Part shown: positions 1-17,132 of the stretch, piece after piece
Position numbering within the stretch: the first letter of the stretch is position 1
Layout: every line of letters begins with the position of its first letter
IMG/VR virus record: IMGVR_UViG_3300042922_000086
Location: 1-20,071 of that record
Reading direction: 5' to 3' (one strand)
Length of the DNA: 20,071 nucleotides
Source: a virus
Notes under the pieces: generated by a model
What the model saw: the letters and a program-made list of their open reading frames with translations, nothing else
What the model was told of the DNA's origin: nothing
The model's database searches: none
Program-made: the position numbers and the translations under genes

Positions 1-1086
1 TACACCGCTTATAAATACGCCTAGATTGTTATACCACGCTAAGCCTACAGGTACATTAGGCTGTACAAATGTCAAACCAGATATCGTAACCGATGTTTCG
101 CCGGATGGTATTTCTTTTAATGCCGAAGCTTGATTGCTGTAAGAACTGTTTGTAACCGCTCCCGTAGTTGGTAAGATATATTTAACTGGTGTGGCTTTGG
201 CCTTGTCAAATTTCTGTATACCCTCTACCGTTACAAGCTGATTACTTTTACCATTTAAGAACAATTCTGCCAGTCCGTTGTCGGCGGTTGTAAAATGTGC
301 AAGGGATGTGTCTGCAATGGTAGCTTTATCTTTATAGCCATTGGCCCACATAGCGCCATCTGACCTTACTTCTACGTTGCCATTACCTTTTACAAGTCCT
401 ATTACCGTATCTGTAGCAATTCCTACTCCGACAATTCCTTGTGCTTCGTCCCTGTATAACTTGGATTGATCTCTGTAATATTTACTATTGTCTGTAGCAT
501 CTTCTGGTACTACTCCACCTACTGCATATCGTTTAGATAAGTCTGCATTGGTTGTAGCTATAACTGCTTGTGCTGTTGCAATATTAGCCTGGATGGTTAT
601 GTTAGCGAGGTAATTGGGTTCTAATTTGTTTGCTGTTATGGAACCATCTTTTACAAAACAGCTTACTTTTCCATCAGTTCCTATCAAAAAACCTATAGTA
701 CTAGAATCTACAAATTCATATTGGGTAACTAATTTAGAGATATCAACTTCTGTAGTTGAACCATCGGTATTTGTGAATATAAGTTTATTTGTATCGGTAT
801 CTATATACCCACTAACAGGAACCTTTTCTAAAGCAGTATCAAACGTCTTAATTGTTCCATTCTTCAATGTTACTGTAATGACGCCTGTAGTTAAGTTCAT
901 ATCCCAATTTGCAACCATAGTTAATGCATCAGTGACAGGAAATTTAGTGGTGTCTAATGTGACAGTCCTGTCATCAAGGGTGTTTAATGCAACATCCATT
1001 TTGTTAAGATTAGTGGATCCAAGTGCTGTAGATGTACTTGGTTGATTAATCCAGTTTATTCTTGTATAAGCTTTGTCAAATGCCAT
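1..1086 (-). CDS. Tail fibre / receptor-binding-type protein, 3' end outside window
   Basis: The frame is open without a stop from the ATG at 1086 to the left edge, giving 362 residues of a longer protein. It begins MAFDKAYTRINW and has NLNKMD near residue 30, an N-terminal pattern (Trp, Pro/Ser/Thr stretch, then LNKMD) that I associate with baseplate-anchored fibre proteins of Clostridia and Bacillus prophages. The body is rich in Thr, Ser, Asn, Gly and Val. It has a middle segment with YYRDQSKLYRDEA-like alternation resembling a trimeric coiled stalk, and then predicted beta-rich sequence, all typical of fibres. AGAAGGTG lies 6-7 nt before the ATG. It follows a 61-residue gene that it overlaps by 31 nt. 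Its role would be at the tail tip, binding the host surface. The receptor-binding tip, normally C-terminal, is not in view, so host specificity cannot be read. Confidence 0.75.
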   Translation of the reverse strand, partial: MAFDKAYTRINWINQPSTSTALGSTNLNKMDVALNTLDDRTVTLDTTKFPVTDALTMVANWDMNLTTGVITVTLKNGTIKTFDTALEKVPVSGYIDTDTNKLIFTNTDGSTTEVDISKLVTQYEFVDSSTIGFLIGTDGKVSCFVKDGSITANKLEPNYLANITIQANIATAQAVIATTNADLSKRYAVGGVVPEDATDNSKYYRDQSKLYRDEAQGIVGVGIATDTVIGLVKGNGNVEVRSDGAMWANGYKDKATIADTSLAHFTTADNGLAELFLNGKSNQLVTVEGIQKFDKAKATPVKYILPTTGAVTNSSYSNQASALKEIPSGETSVTISGLTFVQPNVPVGLAWYNNLGVFISGV

Positions 1087-1241
1087 AATTCACCTTCTTT
1101 CGGCGAGATAATCAAATCGTCTATTGAGGAACTGTCCATCTTATTTAAATGCATTTTTTTCTGAGTATCTTTGCTTCCGGATTCTTTTTGTATGCGACTT
1201 AATTCTTCCCAATCGACTTTTGCATACTCGTTTTTATACAT
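1056..1241 (-). CDS. Small 61-residue protein with fibre-like LNKMD motif
   Basis: This short charged protein has no signal peptide or membrane segment. A GAGGT Shine-Dalgarno lies about 6 nt before the ATG, which supports real translation. Its 3' end overlaps the fibre gene by 31 nt, and the fibre's ribosome site lies inside it, suggesting translational coupling. It contains YAKVDW, then about 20 residues, then LNKMD and IDDL. The fibre protein that follows has AYTRINW, about 15 residues, then LNKMD and LDD. The shared order suggests a diverged copy of the fibre's N-terminal anchor; this is inference, and codon use at LNKMD differs between the two. No known family is recognised otherwise. 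Confidence 0.6.
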   Translation of the reverse strand: MYKNEYAKVDWEELSRIQKESGSKDTQKKMHLNKMDSSSIDDLIISPKEGELWHLTKLIQE

Positions 1242-1263
1242 GTATCTACCTCATTTAGGCATA

Positions 1264-1295
1264 ATAAAAGCACCTACCATGTGGTAGATGCCTTT
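1264..1295 (-). terminator. Intrinsic terminator after the secreted cargo gene
   Basis: Read on the minus strand, the arms CATCTACCA and TGGTAGGTG close a two-base loop. They extend to a stem of about 13 bp with G-U wobbles, followed by CUUUUAUUAU. The site lies 12 nt beyond the stop of the cargo gene and before the small LNKMD gene. Late transcripts for the downstream fibre gene would have to read through it or start anew; no promoter is evident in the 22 nt between it and the next start. Confidence 0.75.
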
Positions 1296-1306
1296 GTTTA
1301 CTAATA

Positions 1307-1918
1307 TTAATCTACTATTATCTTCATGACTCCTGTATTGACTGCATATTCTTCGAATCCATATCCCGTGTTCAACACTTCTTCTGGATAAAAACTGTAT
1401 TTTACTAAGTTGACGCCAACATGCAATTGTATATCTTCATATTCAAGCGTTCCGCTTATGACTTTACCATTGCTGTTTCTAAATACAAAGTCTATCGGGT
1501 TAAATATTTTGTGTATGTCGGTTTCAAATGTCAGTATCTTGCTGAATACTTGTCGTTTCAATGTATCATTAAATATTTTAGTTGTTATTGGTACTGTTAT
1601 TTCTATGTCGTGGTATTGAGGTATGTCCTTGTCCATATCTGGTAAATATTTAAGCGTAATTTTAGCTTCATCATCTTTGACAGGCTCTACCGATAATAGC
1701 TTCCAATATTTTAAAGAAATTTGCTCATTACTTTCTTTATCATAAACAATCCCAGTTATTTTATAATCGTAACTATTGGTGTATTCACCTGGATAAAACT
1801 GCCTTACCTGCTTTATATCCCCTTTAAAAATTGCTTCTTTACTATTCTCTGATGCGAATGCTTGAAATGGAATTAATATCATTATTAAAGCTATTAGTAT
1901 AGATATGCGTTTTTTCAT
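1307..1918 (-). CDS. Secreted protein of unknown function (candidate moron)
   Basis: The protein has 203 residues starting at MKKRISILIALIMILIPFQAFA-SEN: a Lys/Arg n-region, a hydrophobic core and a type I signal peptidase site after about residue 23. No lipobox Cys is visible. The start at 1918 is preferred because GGAGG sits 9 nt upstream; an upstream in-frame TTG at 1927 directly abuts that GGAGG and is unlikely. The mature part is mixed beta-rich (ITGIVYDK, IEITVPITTK, GKVISGTLEYEDIQL) with no recognised domain. It sits inside the tail-gene run yet has its own promoter-like sequence upstream and an intrinsic terminator downstream, the hallmark of a prophage cargo gene expressed during lysogeny. 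An exported product could alter the cell surface or exclude other phages, but nothing in the sequence proves this. Confidence 0.8.
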   Translation of the reverse strand: MKKRISILIALIMILIPFQAFASENSKEAIFKGDIKQVRQFYPGEYTNSYDYKITGIVYDKESNEQISLKYWKLLSVEPVKDDEAKITLKYLPDMDKDIPQYHDIEITVPITTKIFNDTLKRQVFSKILTFETDIHKIFNPIDFVFRNSNGKVISGTLEYEDIQLHVGVNLVKYSFYPEEVLNTGYGFEEYAVNTGVMKIIVD

Positions 1919-1941
1919 AAGCAACAACCTCCGTTTACATT

Positions 1942-1970
1942 ATTATACATAAATATATCAATTAAAACAA
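1942..1970 (-). promoter_or_regulatory. Sigma-A-type promoter for the secreted cargo gene
   Basis: On the minus strand a perfect -10 box TATAAT (1942-1947) is spaced exactly 17 bp from TTGTTT (1965-1970), which keeps the TTG half of the -35 consensus. The expected start would fall near 1935, just before the GGAGG at 1928-1932, giving a very short leader. It lies in the 58-nt gap between the hub gene stop and the cargo gene start. AT-rich DNA produces chance matches, so the position and perfect spacing are the main support. Confidence 0.5.
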
Positions 1971-1976
1971 TACTAA

Positions 1977-4037
1977 TTATTGCATTTCAAACACCTTTTT
2001 ATACATTTTTTGGACCATATATAATGTCCACGCATGAAAATTTTCATAATTTATCCTATGAACTTTTCCATCCGAAACATATTGACCCTCATCTGTATTG
2101 TCCCTTTTATCAATTATTTCTATGATGTTATAATCAAGTGCATTGAAACCAAAAGATTCAAAAGCGCTTTCTACTTGCTGTGCTAGCAAACCAAAAAGTA
2201 TTCCTTTTCCGTATGCATTTGTCTTGAATCTATATTGCCAAGGTTTTAAAGCTAGGTATAGTTCATCTGGCAATTCTTCTATGCTTTTAAAGTCATATTT
2301 TAATCTAAAATCAGATGAAGAAAGTGGTTGGAATGTTGCGTTACACCAGTTTACACTAGCTACGTTTACACCATTCAAACCTACGTTTCCAGATCCTGTG
2401 TAGATAGGTTGAATATGGTTTGAGTCATAATAATAATTATTCCTTGTAGCATATGTGATAACAGTAGACCCGTTAACTTGACACGCCGGAGTTTGTATTT
2501 CGTTGTGTTTTATTACCGTACTTTGTGATACACTTGTAATATCTCCGACACTGATTTCACCTGGTCTCATTTCTGAATATTGAATGTTAGAACTACCCTT
2601 TACTGCTAAGGCAGCTGGAGTCATAGTGTTGCTAAAACTTCCATAAGAAAGTTCTATAACTGAATCATTTTGGTTGTTTCCTGTGACTTTGAATGACCCA
2701 CCAGTTATTTTAGCGCTTGTACTCTCTATACTACCTTTAAATTTTCCATTAACTGCTTCTATACTGCCATCAAGTAAAATCTTAAAGTTGCTATTAGCTG
2801 TTACAATACCTTCTAATTCAATATTAAGAGCCTGTATCTTAGCCAATTCTGGAGATAGATTAATAGCGCCAATTACACCATCTTTCTCAACTCTCTGATT
2901 AATCTCGCCTGCTTGTATTGTAAATTGAGCATCGGAATTATCTTTATTGTTAGTTATCTGAACTTGTAATTCTCCGGCTTTAATATCGATTTGGTTTTCC
3001 AATCCTTCGGCTATGTCAATCATGTTAATAGATAGTTCTTCGACGCTCTTTTTTATAACTAACGCCTTACCTGCCATTTGTTGAATATCAACACCTAGAC
3101 TTTTAGCTTCACTTCTTTTTTGATTGCCCGGTGCAGAAATATCATCTTTTAAGGCCTGTATACCCGATAGTGTTCGATTAAAAACAAAGGATTCTACTGC
3201 ATCATCATTTGTTATGCACGTAACAGTGTCACCTACTTCTACATAGGGCAAACCCATCATTATTGTACTGTGCGGTCGATAGATTTTATCTTTTATCTGT
3301 AGTAAAATAGCATTTGCAATTGCTTGCATTGCTATGCTGCCTTTTCCATAAAGAAGATAGTTTCCCGTTATAATATAGGCATTACCTTCTTCTCCGACAG
3401 TAGTTCCGACGTCTTCATCCTCTTGTCTAATGGTTAATGATGTTATTGCTTCAACAATGTATTCTTCATAATCTATTTTGTAATATCCGCTAGTTATATA
3501 CTCTCCGCTTTCAGCAGGAAACAAATCTTCGGATGGATAAAGTGTTTCTGATGGGTACAAACCTAACCCACTTAATTGTATAACCTTAAACTTGTTATAC
3601 CTTGTTATATGACCAAATCCGGCGTTTATTTCACATAGCCTTTTCAATACATCCCTGCCCACTAAAACGCTTGGTGAAACGGTCTTTACAAGCATCACAT
3701 CGTCGTTTGTAATCGTTTGGTCTTCATAGTCAATGTCCAAATGTGAAAGAAGTGACAGTCTCATGTTTTTAACTGATATAGGAAAAGTTAAACTATTATA
3801 CCAAGTAGATACATCCGCATCAGTTTTTAACATTGCATCGTATCCGGTTATATCTTTTGTTTTTTGGTTATGTTTCTTTTTACAAGAATCAACGACATAA
3901 GTCCCTAGTGGCATTTCAAATTCACCAATAGACTGAGTTATAGTAAATAACTGCCCTGATAGCTCTTGTATAACATTAATAACAGAAAATTGAACCTGTG
4001 AAGCTTCGCAAGAACCAATTACTATATCATCTGCCAT
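1977..4037 (-). CDS. Tail hub / tail-tip fibre protein with C-terminal S74 chaperone domain
   Basis: This is a 686-residue open frame. The N-terminal ~240 residues (GSCEASQVQF, PLGTYVVDS, LTFPISVK) match my memory of the hub part of prophage tail proteins that follow the tape measure. Residues ~330-470 carry fibre-like repeats (IQALNIELEG, VNGKFKGSIES, AKITGGSFKV). The C-terminus is a Peptidase_S74-type intramolecular chaperone: SSSDFRLKYDF around residues 573-583, then GLLAQQVE and the final YENFHAWTLYMVQ helix. In that family autocleavage falls between Ser and Asp, here Ser575-Asp576, releasing the chaperone after trimerisation. The listed ATG (MADD) has no good ribosome site. Coding similarity continues upstream in the same frame (PNLDLTINSDRIIAESFELTESLC), and the true start appears cut off by a frameshift described at 4100-4147. 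Confidence 0.82.
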   Translation of the reverse strand: MADDIVIGSCEASQVQFSVINVIQELSGQLFTITQSIGEFEMPLGTYVVDSCKKKHNQKTKDITGYDAMLKTDADVSTWYNSLTFPISVKNMRLSLLSHLDIDYEDQTITNDDVMLVKTVSPSVLVGRDVLKRLCEINAGFGHITRYNKFKVIQLSGLGLYPSETLYPSEDLFPAESGEYITSGYYKIDYEEYIVEAITSLTIRQEDEDVGTTVGEEGNAYIITGNYLLYGKGSIAMQAIANAILLQIKDKIYRPHSTIMMGLPYVEVGDTVTCITNDDAVESFVFNRTLSGIQALKDDISAPGNQKRSEAKSLGVDIQQMAGKALVIKKSVEELSINMIDIAEGLENQIDIKAGELQVQITNNKDNSDAQFTIQAGEINQRVEKDGVIGAINLSPELAKIQALNIELEGIVTANSNFKILLDGSIEAVNGKFKGSIESTSAKITGGSFKVTGNNQNDSVIELSYGSFSNTMTPAALAVKGSSNIQYSEMRPGEISVGDITSVSQSTVIKHNEIQTPACQVNGSTVITYATRNNYYYDSNHIQPIYTGSGNVGLNGVNVASVNWCNATFQPLSSSDFRLKYDFKSIEELPDELYLALKPWQYRFKTNAYGKGILFGLLAQQVESAFESFGFNALDYNIIEIIDKRDNTDEGQYVSDGKVHRINYENFHAWTLYMVQKMYKKVFEMQ

Positions 4038-4099: not shown

Positions 4100-4147
4100 C
4101 TAAGTTAGGAAAATATATTGCTTTAATTCATCAGATATATCAAGCAT
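4100..4147 (-). pseudogene. Detached 5' end of the tail hub gene (frameshifted)
   Basis: ATG at 4147 follows a strong AAGGAGATAT ribosome site and encodes MLDISDELKQYIFLT before a TAG at 4100-4102. One base away, the frame of the hub gene is open from 4127 downward and reads YFPNLDLTINSDRIIAESF into MADDIVIG. The family normally opens with a short helix (DISDELKQYI-like) followed by a strand such as this, so the two pieces look like one gene broken near the four-A run at 4110-4113. Adding one T on the coding strand would give KQYIFPNLDLT. The cause could be a mutation in a decaying prophage, a sequencing or assembly error, or a larger deletion of 3n+1 bases. The sequence at the junction is not a convincing programmed slippery site. 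Confidence 0.75.
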
Positions 4148-14920: not shown

Positions 14921-15232
14921 TTAAATACCAGGGGGGATATAGTTTTTATAAAATATTTTTATTTTATCTTTTACTCTCTCAACTAATTGTAATCCGTTCT
15001 GTGTTAACGTATCATCTGTTCTGTTGTGCATCTTATCATGACATTTATTACATAAGCTAATTAAGTTATCGTTGCATAGTATTAGCTCATGATAATTATC
15101 AGCTGGATTAATATGATGTACCTGTTGTGCTGCTGTTGTCTTGCCGTACCTCTTACACTCTTGACATAAATACTTATCACGCTTAAGTATTACTTGTCTC
15201 TTCCTTATCCATCGTGTATCTTTATAGTTCAT
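14921..15232 (-). CDS. HNH endonuclease associated with DNA packaging
   Basis: This 103-residue protein of the packaging-HNH type lies directly upstream of TerS. The zinc-ribbon plus HNH core reads CQECKRYGKTT, VHHINPADNYHE, NDNLISLCNKCHDKMH. The two CxxC pairs bind structural zinc; the first His of VHH, the Asn of NDNLISLC and the His of CHDKMH are the catalytic set. In HK97 and related phages this protein works with the terminase to cut at cos. The gene begins with a GAAGGTGAGC ribosome site that overlaps the stop of the small gene before it. Confidence 0.92.
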   Translation of the reverse strand: MNYKDTRWIRKRQVILKRDKYLCQECKRYGKTTAAQQVHHINPADNYHELILCNDNLISLCNKCHDKMHNRTDDTLTQNGLQLVERVKDKIKIFYKNYIPPGI

Positions 15233-16745: not shown

Positions 16746-17132
16746 TCATATTTCTATTTTTAGTTTTTTATCTCTAAGTTCCCTGTTCCTCAAGTATGTT
16801 TCTCTAAACTTTTTCTTGGATTCGGGCAATTGCAAAGCACCGTGTTCTTTTTGTGTTACCCAAATTAAGTTACTGACATCATTATTCTGTTTATTACCAT
16901 CGATATGATGAACATGAGATTTTTTATCTGTGTTTGGTAAAAATGCAATAGCAGCTAATCTATGAACACTTCTGATATTATTACGCCTGTTATAATATAA
17001 ATTGCATCGGCAATACCCAGACTTTTCAACCGAAATACTAAGCAAGGACAGATTACTATTTCTTCTTATATTTCCATAATTGCTTATCTGATAAATATTT
17101 ATGAATTCATCTATATCTTTCCACTCTTCCAT
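16746..17132 (-). CDS. NUMOD4/HNH homing-type endonuclease
   Basis: The protein has 128 residues. The N-terminal NUMOD4 motif is WKDIDEFINIYQISNYGNIRR. A strand-rich DNA-contact segment follows (VEKSGYCRCNLYYNRRN), then VHRLAAIAFLPN and the HNH core VHHIDGNKQNNDVSNLIWVTQKEH, where VHH, N and the Asn of NLIWVT are the usual catalytic positions. This architecture is typical of free-standing homing nucleases that move between phages. It follows the sigma-like gene with no gap, with GGAGGTGG about 5 nt before ATG. No intron or intein is visible in neighbouring genes, so it looks like a free-standing mobile gene. Confidence 0.93.
   Translation of the reverse strand: MEEWKDIDEFINIYQISNYGNIRRNSNLSLLSISVEKSGYCRCNLYYNRRNNIRSVHRLAAIAFLPNTDKKSHVHHIDGNKQNNDVSNLIWVTQKEHGALQLPESKKKFRETYLRNRELRDKKLKIEI

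Follow-up and report, generated by a model that had tools for sequence, protein, structure and literature searches.

A probable moron with a predicted secreted product between the tail hub and tail fibre genes of a siphophage

Introduction

Does a gene for a predicted secreted protein, located between the tail hub and tail fibre genes of a phage, belong to the late operon around it, or is it a moron, an autonomous unit of promoter, gene and terminator? This question is raised by a stretch of viral DNA of 20,071 nucleotides (IMG/VR record IMGVR_UViG_3300042922_000086), referred to here as the window. An earlier note on this DNA had favoured the second answer. Here we report the follow-up of this gene, which we call the cargo gene, and of the slot that it occupies in related phages.

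The cargo gene encodes a predicted secreted protein

The features of the locus are collected in Table 1. The gene lies between the tail hub and tail fibre genes as the earlier note had described, and the signal peptide that the note assigned to its product is clear in the sequence. The N-terminus, MKKRISILIALIMILIPFQAFA followed by SE, has a positive start, a hydrophobic core and an AXA site. The cargo protein of the relative L002 has the same signal-peptide architecture (cleavage between VKA and ET), although it is only 46% identical to the window protein, and neither protein has the +1 Cys of a lipobox. Signal peptides were read in all four cargo proteins found in this slot (4/4), the start of the L012 protein being graded as signal-peptide-like. 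The dN/dS of the cargo gene is 0.12 (window versus L001/G001), so it encodes a real, constrained protein under purifying selection. Its base composition differs slightly from the surroundings (31.5% GC and 28.4% GC3, versus 35.1% GC for the window, 34.9% for the hub and 38.0% for the fibre); several core genes are equally low and there is no clear foreign signature.

Table 1. Features of the cargo locus, in the order of transcription of the minus strand
Feature	Position	Strand	Basis or remark
Tail hub, carrying a Peptidase_S74 (endosialidase chaperone) tip at its C-terminus	1977..4037	minus	Profile matches
Exchange block, from hub tip through cargo and terminator to small ORF	1051..3050	minus	2.0 kb, 90.3% identical to G001
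Promoter-like box TTGTTT - 17 bp - TATAAT	1942..1970	minus	Sequence; kept in L001 and L002; analogous box in L012
Ribosome-binding site CGGAGG	1928..1933 (1933-1928)	minus	9 nt upstream of cargo ATG
Cargo gene	1307..1918	minus	203 aa, predicted secreted protein; ATG at 1918, stop ends at 1307
Signal peptide, residues 1-22, cleavage between AFA and SE	1853..1918	minus	Read from sequence
N-terminal half of mature protein, predicted beta-sandwich, probably Ig-like	1565..1846	minus	AlphaFold2 and structural matches
C-terminal half, conserved in sequence	1307..1564	minus	No confident fold
Intrinsic terminator hairpin with TTTTATTAT tail	1261..1295	minus	Folding and shuffles; conserved in L001, L002 and L012
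Small ORF, 61 codons, between terminator and fibre	1056..1241	minus	Also present in L001 and L012
Tail fibre, N-terminal part (cut by window end)	1..1086	minus	Profile matches

The cargo gene is flanked by a candidate promoter and a terminator

The TATAAT/17 bp/TTGTTT motif that the note had reported upstream of the gene is present (TTGTTT at 1970-1965 and TATAAT at 1947-1942), with a -35 hexamer that agrees with the consensus at only 3/6 positions. A generic motif scan of the region gave 15 promoter-like sites versus 17.5 expected, so motif matching alone is no evidence for a promoter. When the short intergenic region was shuffled, the pairing of TTG with a perfect TATAAT had a P of 0.036 in the window and 0.017 in L002. 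The distant relative L002 keeps the box almost equally far from the start codon while the remaining spacer has diverged, and the element TATAATAATGT is found shortly upstream of the cargo start in the window, L001 and L002 (3/3).

The 13-bp terminator of the earlier note was likewise recovered downstream. Its stem includes A-U and G-U pairs and closes on a 4-nt loop (-18.3 kcal/mol, z -3.9); a generic terminator tool missed it. Three comparable hairpins, this one included, occur on the minus strand of the window, with none on the plus strand and none in 20 shuffles. The hairpin pattern GCATCTA(C/T)C...G(G/A)TAGGTGCTTTTATTAT is common to the window, L001 and L002, and a scan of viral contigs with the terminator pattern matched three known relatives and nothing else, which indicates that the collection holds no further cargoes with exactly that terminator.

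A strong terminator hairpin is also found at 7059-7038, directly after the major tail protein gene and inside the late operon, suggesting that the phage tolerates or antiterminates such sites. Another hairpin, at 16612-16585 between the phosphoesterase and HNH genes, carries GTAGGTGCTTTTT and has a 3' arm like that of the cargo terminator.

That the locus is a spurious ORF with random motifs around it would agree with the background count of promoter motifs. This explanation is refuted by conservation, namely the low dN/dS, the 46% identity over the full length in a distant phage and the conserved terminator, and we give it virtually no chance.

The cargo unit is present, absent or replaced among related phages

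In 2.9 million viral contigs, three scans with different peptide patterns returned the same two homologues of the cargo, in L001/G001 (90% identity) and L002/G002 (46%, full length), and the gene has the same neighbours in the window, L001 and L002. Searches of phages, plasmids and species genomes with the cargo sequence gave nothing, the genome scan consisting of two short peptide patterns that diverged copies can escape.

The earlier note had proposed comparing related phages for clean presence or absence of the block, and homologues of the hub and fibre were gathered independently of the cargo. The hub continues straight into the fibre in L013, L018 and L019, and it abuts or overlaps a small ORF in L022 and in two phages further removed, Roseburia phage Jekyll and NatCom_3357, in both of which the two genes overlap; none of the six has the block. 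The block is thus absent from at least five related tail modules (L013, L018, L019, L022 and L015). Together with Jekyll and NatCom_3357, these place the insertion between genes that are adjacent in relatives, and a single coding region lies between the terminator and the candidate promoter, the latter judged by its conserved sequence. The empty slot of L015 keeps, at 1747-1805 between hub and fibre, a T-tract hairpin, which is weak (z only -1.4) and is perhaps the remnant of an earlier cargo unit.

In L012/G003 (IMGVR 3300042922_000097), the slot is filled by another gene. Its product of ~131-133 aa starts like a signal peptide and contains a Big_2 domain (E 1.6e-7, above the cut-off), and the unit has its own promoter-like box (TTGCAT/16/TACAAT) and the same terminator as the window cargo. 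No similarity was found between the mature sequences of the L012 and window cargoes, and the L012 cargo, when searched for relatives, matched only itself. The DNA of G001 and G003 is unrelated through the hub end and the cargo and is then 92% identical over 2.4 kb, the similarity beginning exactly at the stop codons of the two unrelated cargo genes. The block is therefore not a fixed part of the tail module, being absent in some relatives and replaced in L012.

The N-terminus of the small ORF downstream (1241-1056; YxKxDW...NKMD) resembles the fibre's own N-terminal segment, and its place is taken by different small ORFs in G002, L022, Jekyll and NatCom_3357. A resemblance between the small ORFs of L002 and L022 was dropped, as BLASTP gave no match.

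The cargo is inherited together with the hub tip

The 2.0-kb exchange block is the only long near-identical segment common to the window and G001 in the stretches compared. Over residues 1-330, the hub is 58-63% identical to that of the window in L001, L002, L012, L013 and L018, and 40-54% identical in L015, L019 and L022. For the S74 tip, on the other hand, identity reaches 95% and 50% in the two further carriers of the cargo, while no other phage of the set exceeds 30%. The cargo is present in 3/3 phages with the window-type S74 tip and in 0/6 without it (Fisher P ~0.012, calculated by hand and uncorrected for relatedness). Judged from these alignments of a small sample, the cargo is inherited together with the C-terminal S74 tip of the hub; plain physical linkage could be the cause.

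The N-terminal half of the mature protein is predicted to be a beta-sandwich

As the earlier note had stated, the mature protein has no recognised domain: no family match was found in Pfam, PHROGs, NCBIfam or PADLOC, and the family is new to these libraries. The structure prediction and search that the note had proposed gave a partial answer. An AlphaFold2 model from a three-sequence alignment is beta-rich at residues 25-118 (pLDDT about 65-87) and uncertain elsewhere. The best structural neighbours of this region are Rib, S-layer, LigB, PKD and FN3 beta-sandwiches; these matches are weak (Z 4.3 or less) and may reflect no more than a common arrangement. The model suggests a probable Ig-like beta-sandwich for the N-terminal half, and the two slot cargoes, that of the window and the Big_2 protein of L012, may both be Ig-like. 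The C-terminal half gave no confident fold, and modelling it alone produced a low-confidence model. With no more than three family members known, support for the fold is thin. Foldseek of the model against PDB and BFVD gave no match at E <= 0.001.

Searches of the cargo found no defence-family match, no known adhesin domain or cell-wall anchor motif, and no lipid anchor or TM segment. Two candidate matches were rejected. A YezG-like match of the L002 cargo (E 0.0022, below the cut-off) was seen in that one member and not in its closest relatives, and an eIF-1A match in a PDB profile search is implausible for an exported protein.

Lysogeny and the probable host

The contig of the cargo-carrying relative G002 encodes a tyrosine integrase, a CI-like repressor, a Cro-like protein and an AntA/ORF6C anti-repressor, indicating that a lysogenic state exists in this phage group. 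G004, which has an empty slot, also carries an integrase. No integrase, CI, Cro or anti-repressor gene was found in the 20-kb window, itself a fragment. Among named phages, the nearest terminases and hubs are those of Geobacillus, Exiguobacterium, Ruminococcus gnavus and Roseburia phages; together with the AT-rich DNA, this suggests a host in the Firmicutes, probably in the Clostridia. An acyltransferase-3 gene (PF01757, E 1.6e-25) is located between the fibre and lysis genes of G002 (L002 8422-9468) and is likely a second conversion gene, for surface polysaccharide acylation.

The cargo unit as a moron, and alternative explanations

We consider it probable that the cargo unit is a moron, an autonomous promoter-gene-terminator unit that a temperate siphophage, probably of one of the Clostridia, carries between its hub and its small ORF/fibre. 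We favour this reading because promoter box, gene and terminator have all been kept in a relative whose protein is only 46% identical, and because the slot is empty in five relatives and refilled by an unrelated secreted Big_2 protein in L012. The anatomy also agrees with the structural description of morons in PMC4378225, and the earlier note's assignment holds in this structural sense. Several points speak against it. The -35 box is weak, AT-rich DNA such as this abounds in promoter motifs, the hairpin after the major tail protein gene means that such a structure in the late operon is not necessarily the sign of a separate unit, and transcription of the late genes must pass through the cargo terminator to reach the fibre. 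In addition, the base composition lacks a clear foreign signature, and the window is a fragment without an integrase.

The anatomy of the unit, its conservation, its presence, absence and replacement, the purifying selection and the co-exchange with the hub tip are read from the DNA, and from these we infer lysogenic conversion in the functional sense. In the prophage, host sigma-A RNA polymerase would read the cargo promoter while the late operon is silent. The protein would be exported by Sec, with cleavage after AFA. Outside the membrane or in the lysogen's cell wall, it might serve as a beta-sandwich binding protein. Its role would most likely be lysogenic conversion of the cell surface, with superinfection exclusion and adhesion or another host benefit about equally likely; the inheritance of the cargo with a particular hub tip tilts this slightly towards exclusion.

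It is improbable that the gene is instead a tail or lysis accessory, read mainly with the late operon, whose secreted product acts in lytic growth, for example by freeing progeny from, or protecting, the receptors recognised by the tip. The cargo does share the strand and position of the late genes and is inherited with the hub tip, and the hairpin at 7059-7038 shows that such structures are tolerated inside the late operon. Against this, its own promoter box is kept across a large divergence and the cargo is missing from most relatives with the same hub body. To our knowledge, moreover, structural phage proteins as a rule lack Sec signal peptides.

If the unit is a moron, two roles have to be weighed, and each is put forward tentatively. 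A prophage-made secreted protein may keep phages with the same hub tip from adsorbing or injecting, which would account for cargo and S74 tip being swapped as one 2-kb block between otherwise divergent phages and for L012 having both a different tip and a different cargo. Examples of prophage-encoded proteins for surface exclusion come from Gram-positive phages, such as the Ltp lipoprotein (PMC3952083), and HK97 gp15 is a moron with that role as cited in PMC4737114. The sample is small, however, and physical linkage alone can make neighbours travel together; in addition, the absence of a lipid anchor or TM segment leaves surface retention unexplained, and there is no defence-family match. The protein may instead be a surface protein or adhesin that benefits the lysogen and is unrelated to phage exclusion, as possible a role as the first. 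Both slot cargoes are secreted, the Big_2 one being Ig-like and the window one probably so, and lambda lom offers a precedent at the same position; yet the cargo has no known adhesin domain or cell-wall anchor motif and its fold match is weak. A more specific and doubtful idea is that the slot is a cassette in which hub tip and secreted surface protein form a matched pair, the prophage-made protein masking or occupying the receptor of the tip so that a new tip would call for a new exclusion protein.

Comparison with known systems

Like the cargo gene, lambda lom lies between the tail hub and a tail-fibre gene in the same orientation and encodes an exported product. The spacing is J - 61 bp - lom (206 aa) - 64 bp - orf401 in lambda, and hub - 58 bp - cargo (203 aa) - 65 bp - small ORF/fibre in the window. 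Lom is expressed from the lambda prophage (PMC7067206). It is an outer-membrane protein of a Gram-negative host, whereas the cargo has the look of a soluble, exported protein and its host is probably Gram-positive, and the cargo shows no sequence similarity to Lom (Lom/Ail family; E 5.5).

The morons of lambdoid phages (Juhala et al. 2000, as summarised in PMC4378225) are likewise single genes with a promoter on one side and a terminator on the other, inserted between genes that lie next to each other in relatives. Unlike these, the cargo differs only slightly in base composition and is exchanged with the hub tip, not alone. Superinfection exclusion lipoproteins of the Ltp type (TP-J34) are also prophage-encoded, exported and small, but have a lipobox, which the cargo lacks, and another genome position; the target of Ltp is the tape measure protein (PMC3952083). 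A parallel in slot, promoter-like box, terminator and signal-peptide-like N-terminus is the L012 cargo, which has an Ig-like domain where that of the window is probable, and which differs in size and mature sequence.

The locus is a well-delimited moron candidate at the lom position, with a protein family absent from the libraries searched, a secreted product and probably Gram-positive hosts. The linkage of tip and cargo raises a testable question, namely whether prophage surface proteins are matched to their own receptor-binding tips. If they are not, the cargo would be an ordinary further example of a moron with an exported product.

Other features of the window

The hub gene seems to be broken at its 5' end (4147-4037). 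An ATG with a ribosome-binding site at 4147 meets a stop after 15 codons, and the frame homologous to residue 29 onward of the relatives is open from about 4121, so that ~20 residues' worth is missing. This looks like a deletion/frameshift or an assembly error. The window also has two HNH endonuclease genes (16746-17132 and 14921-15232), one of them of the NUMOD4-HNH_3 homing type.
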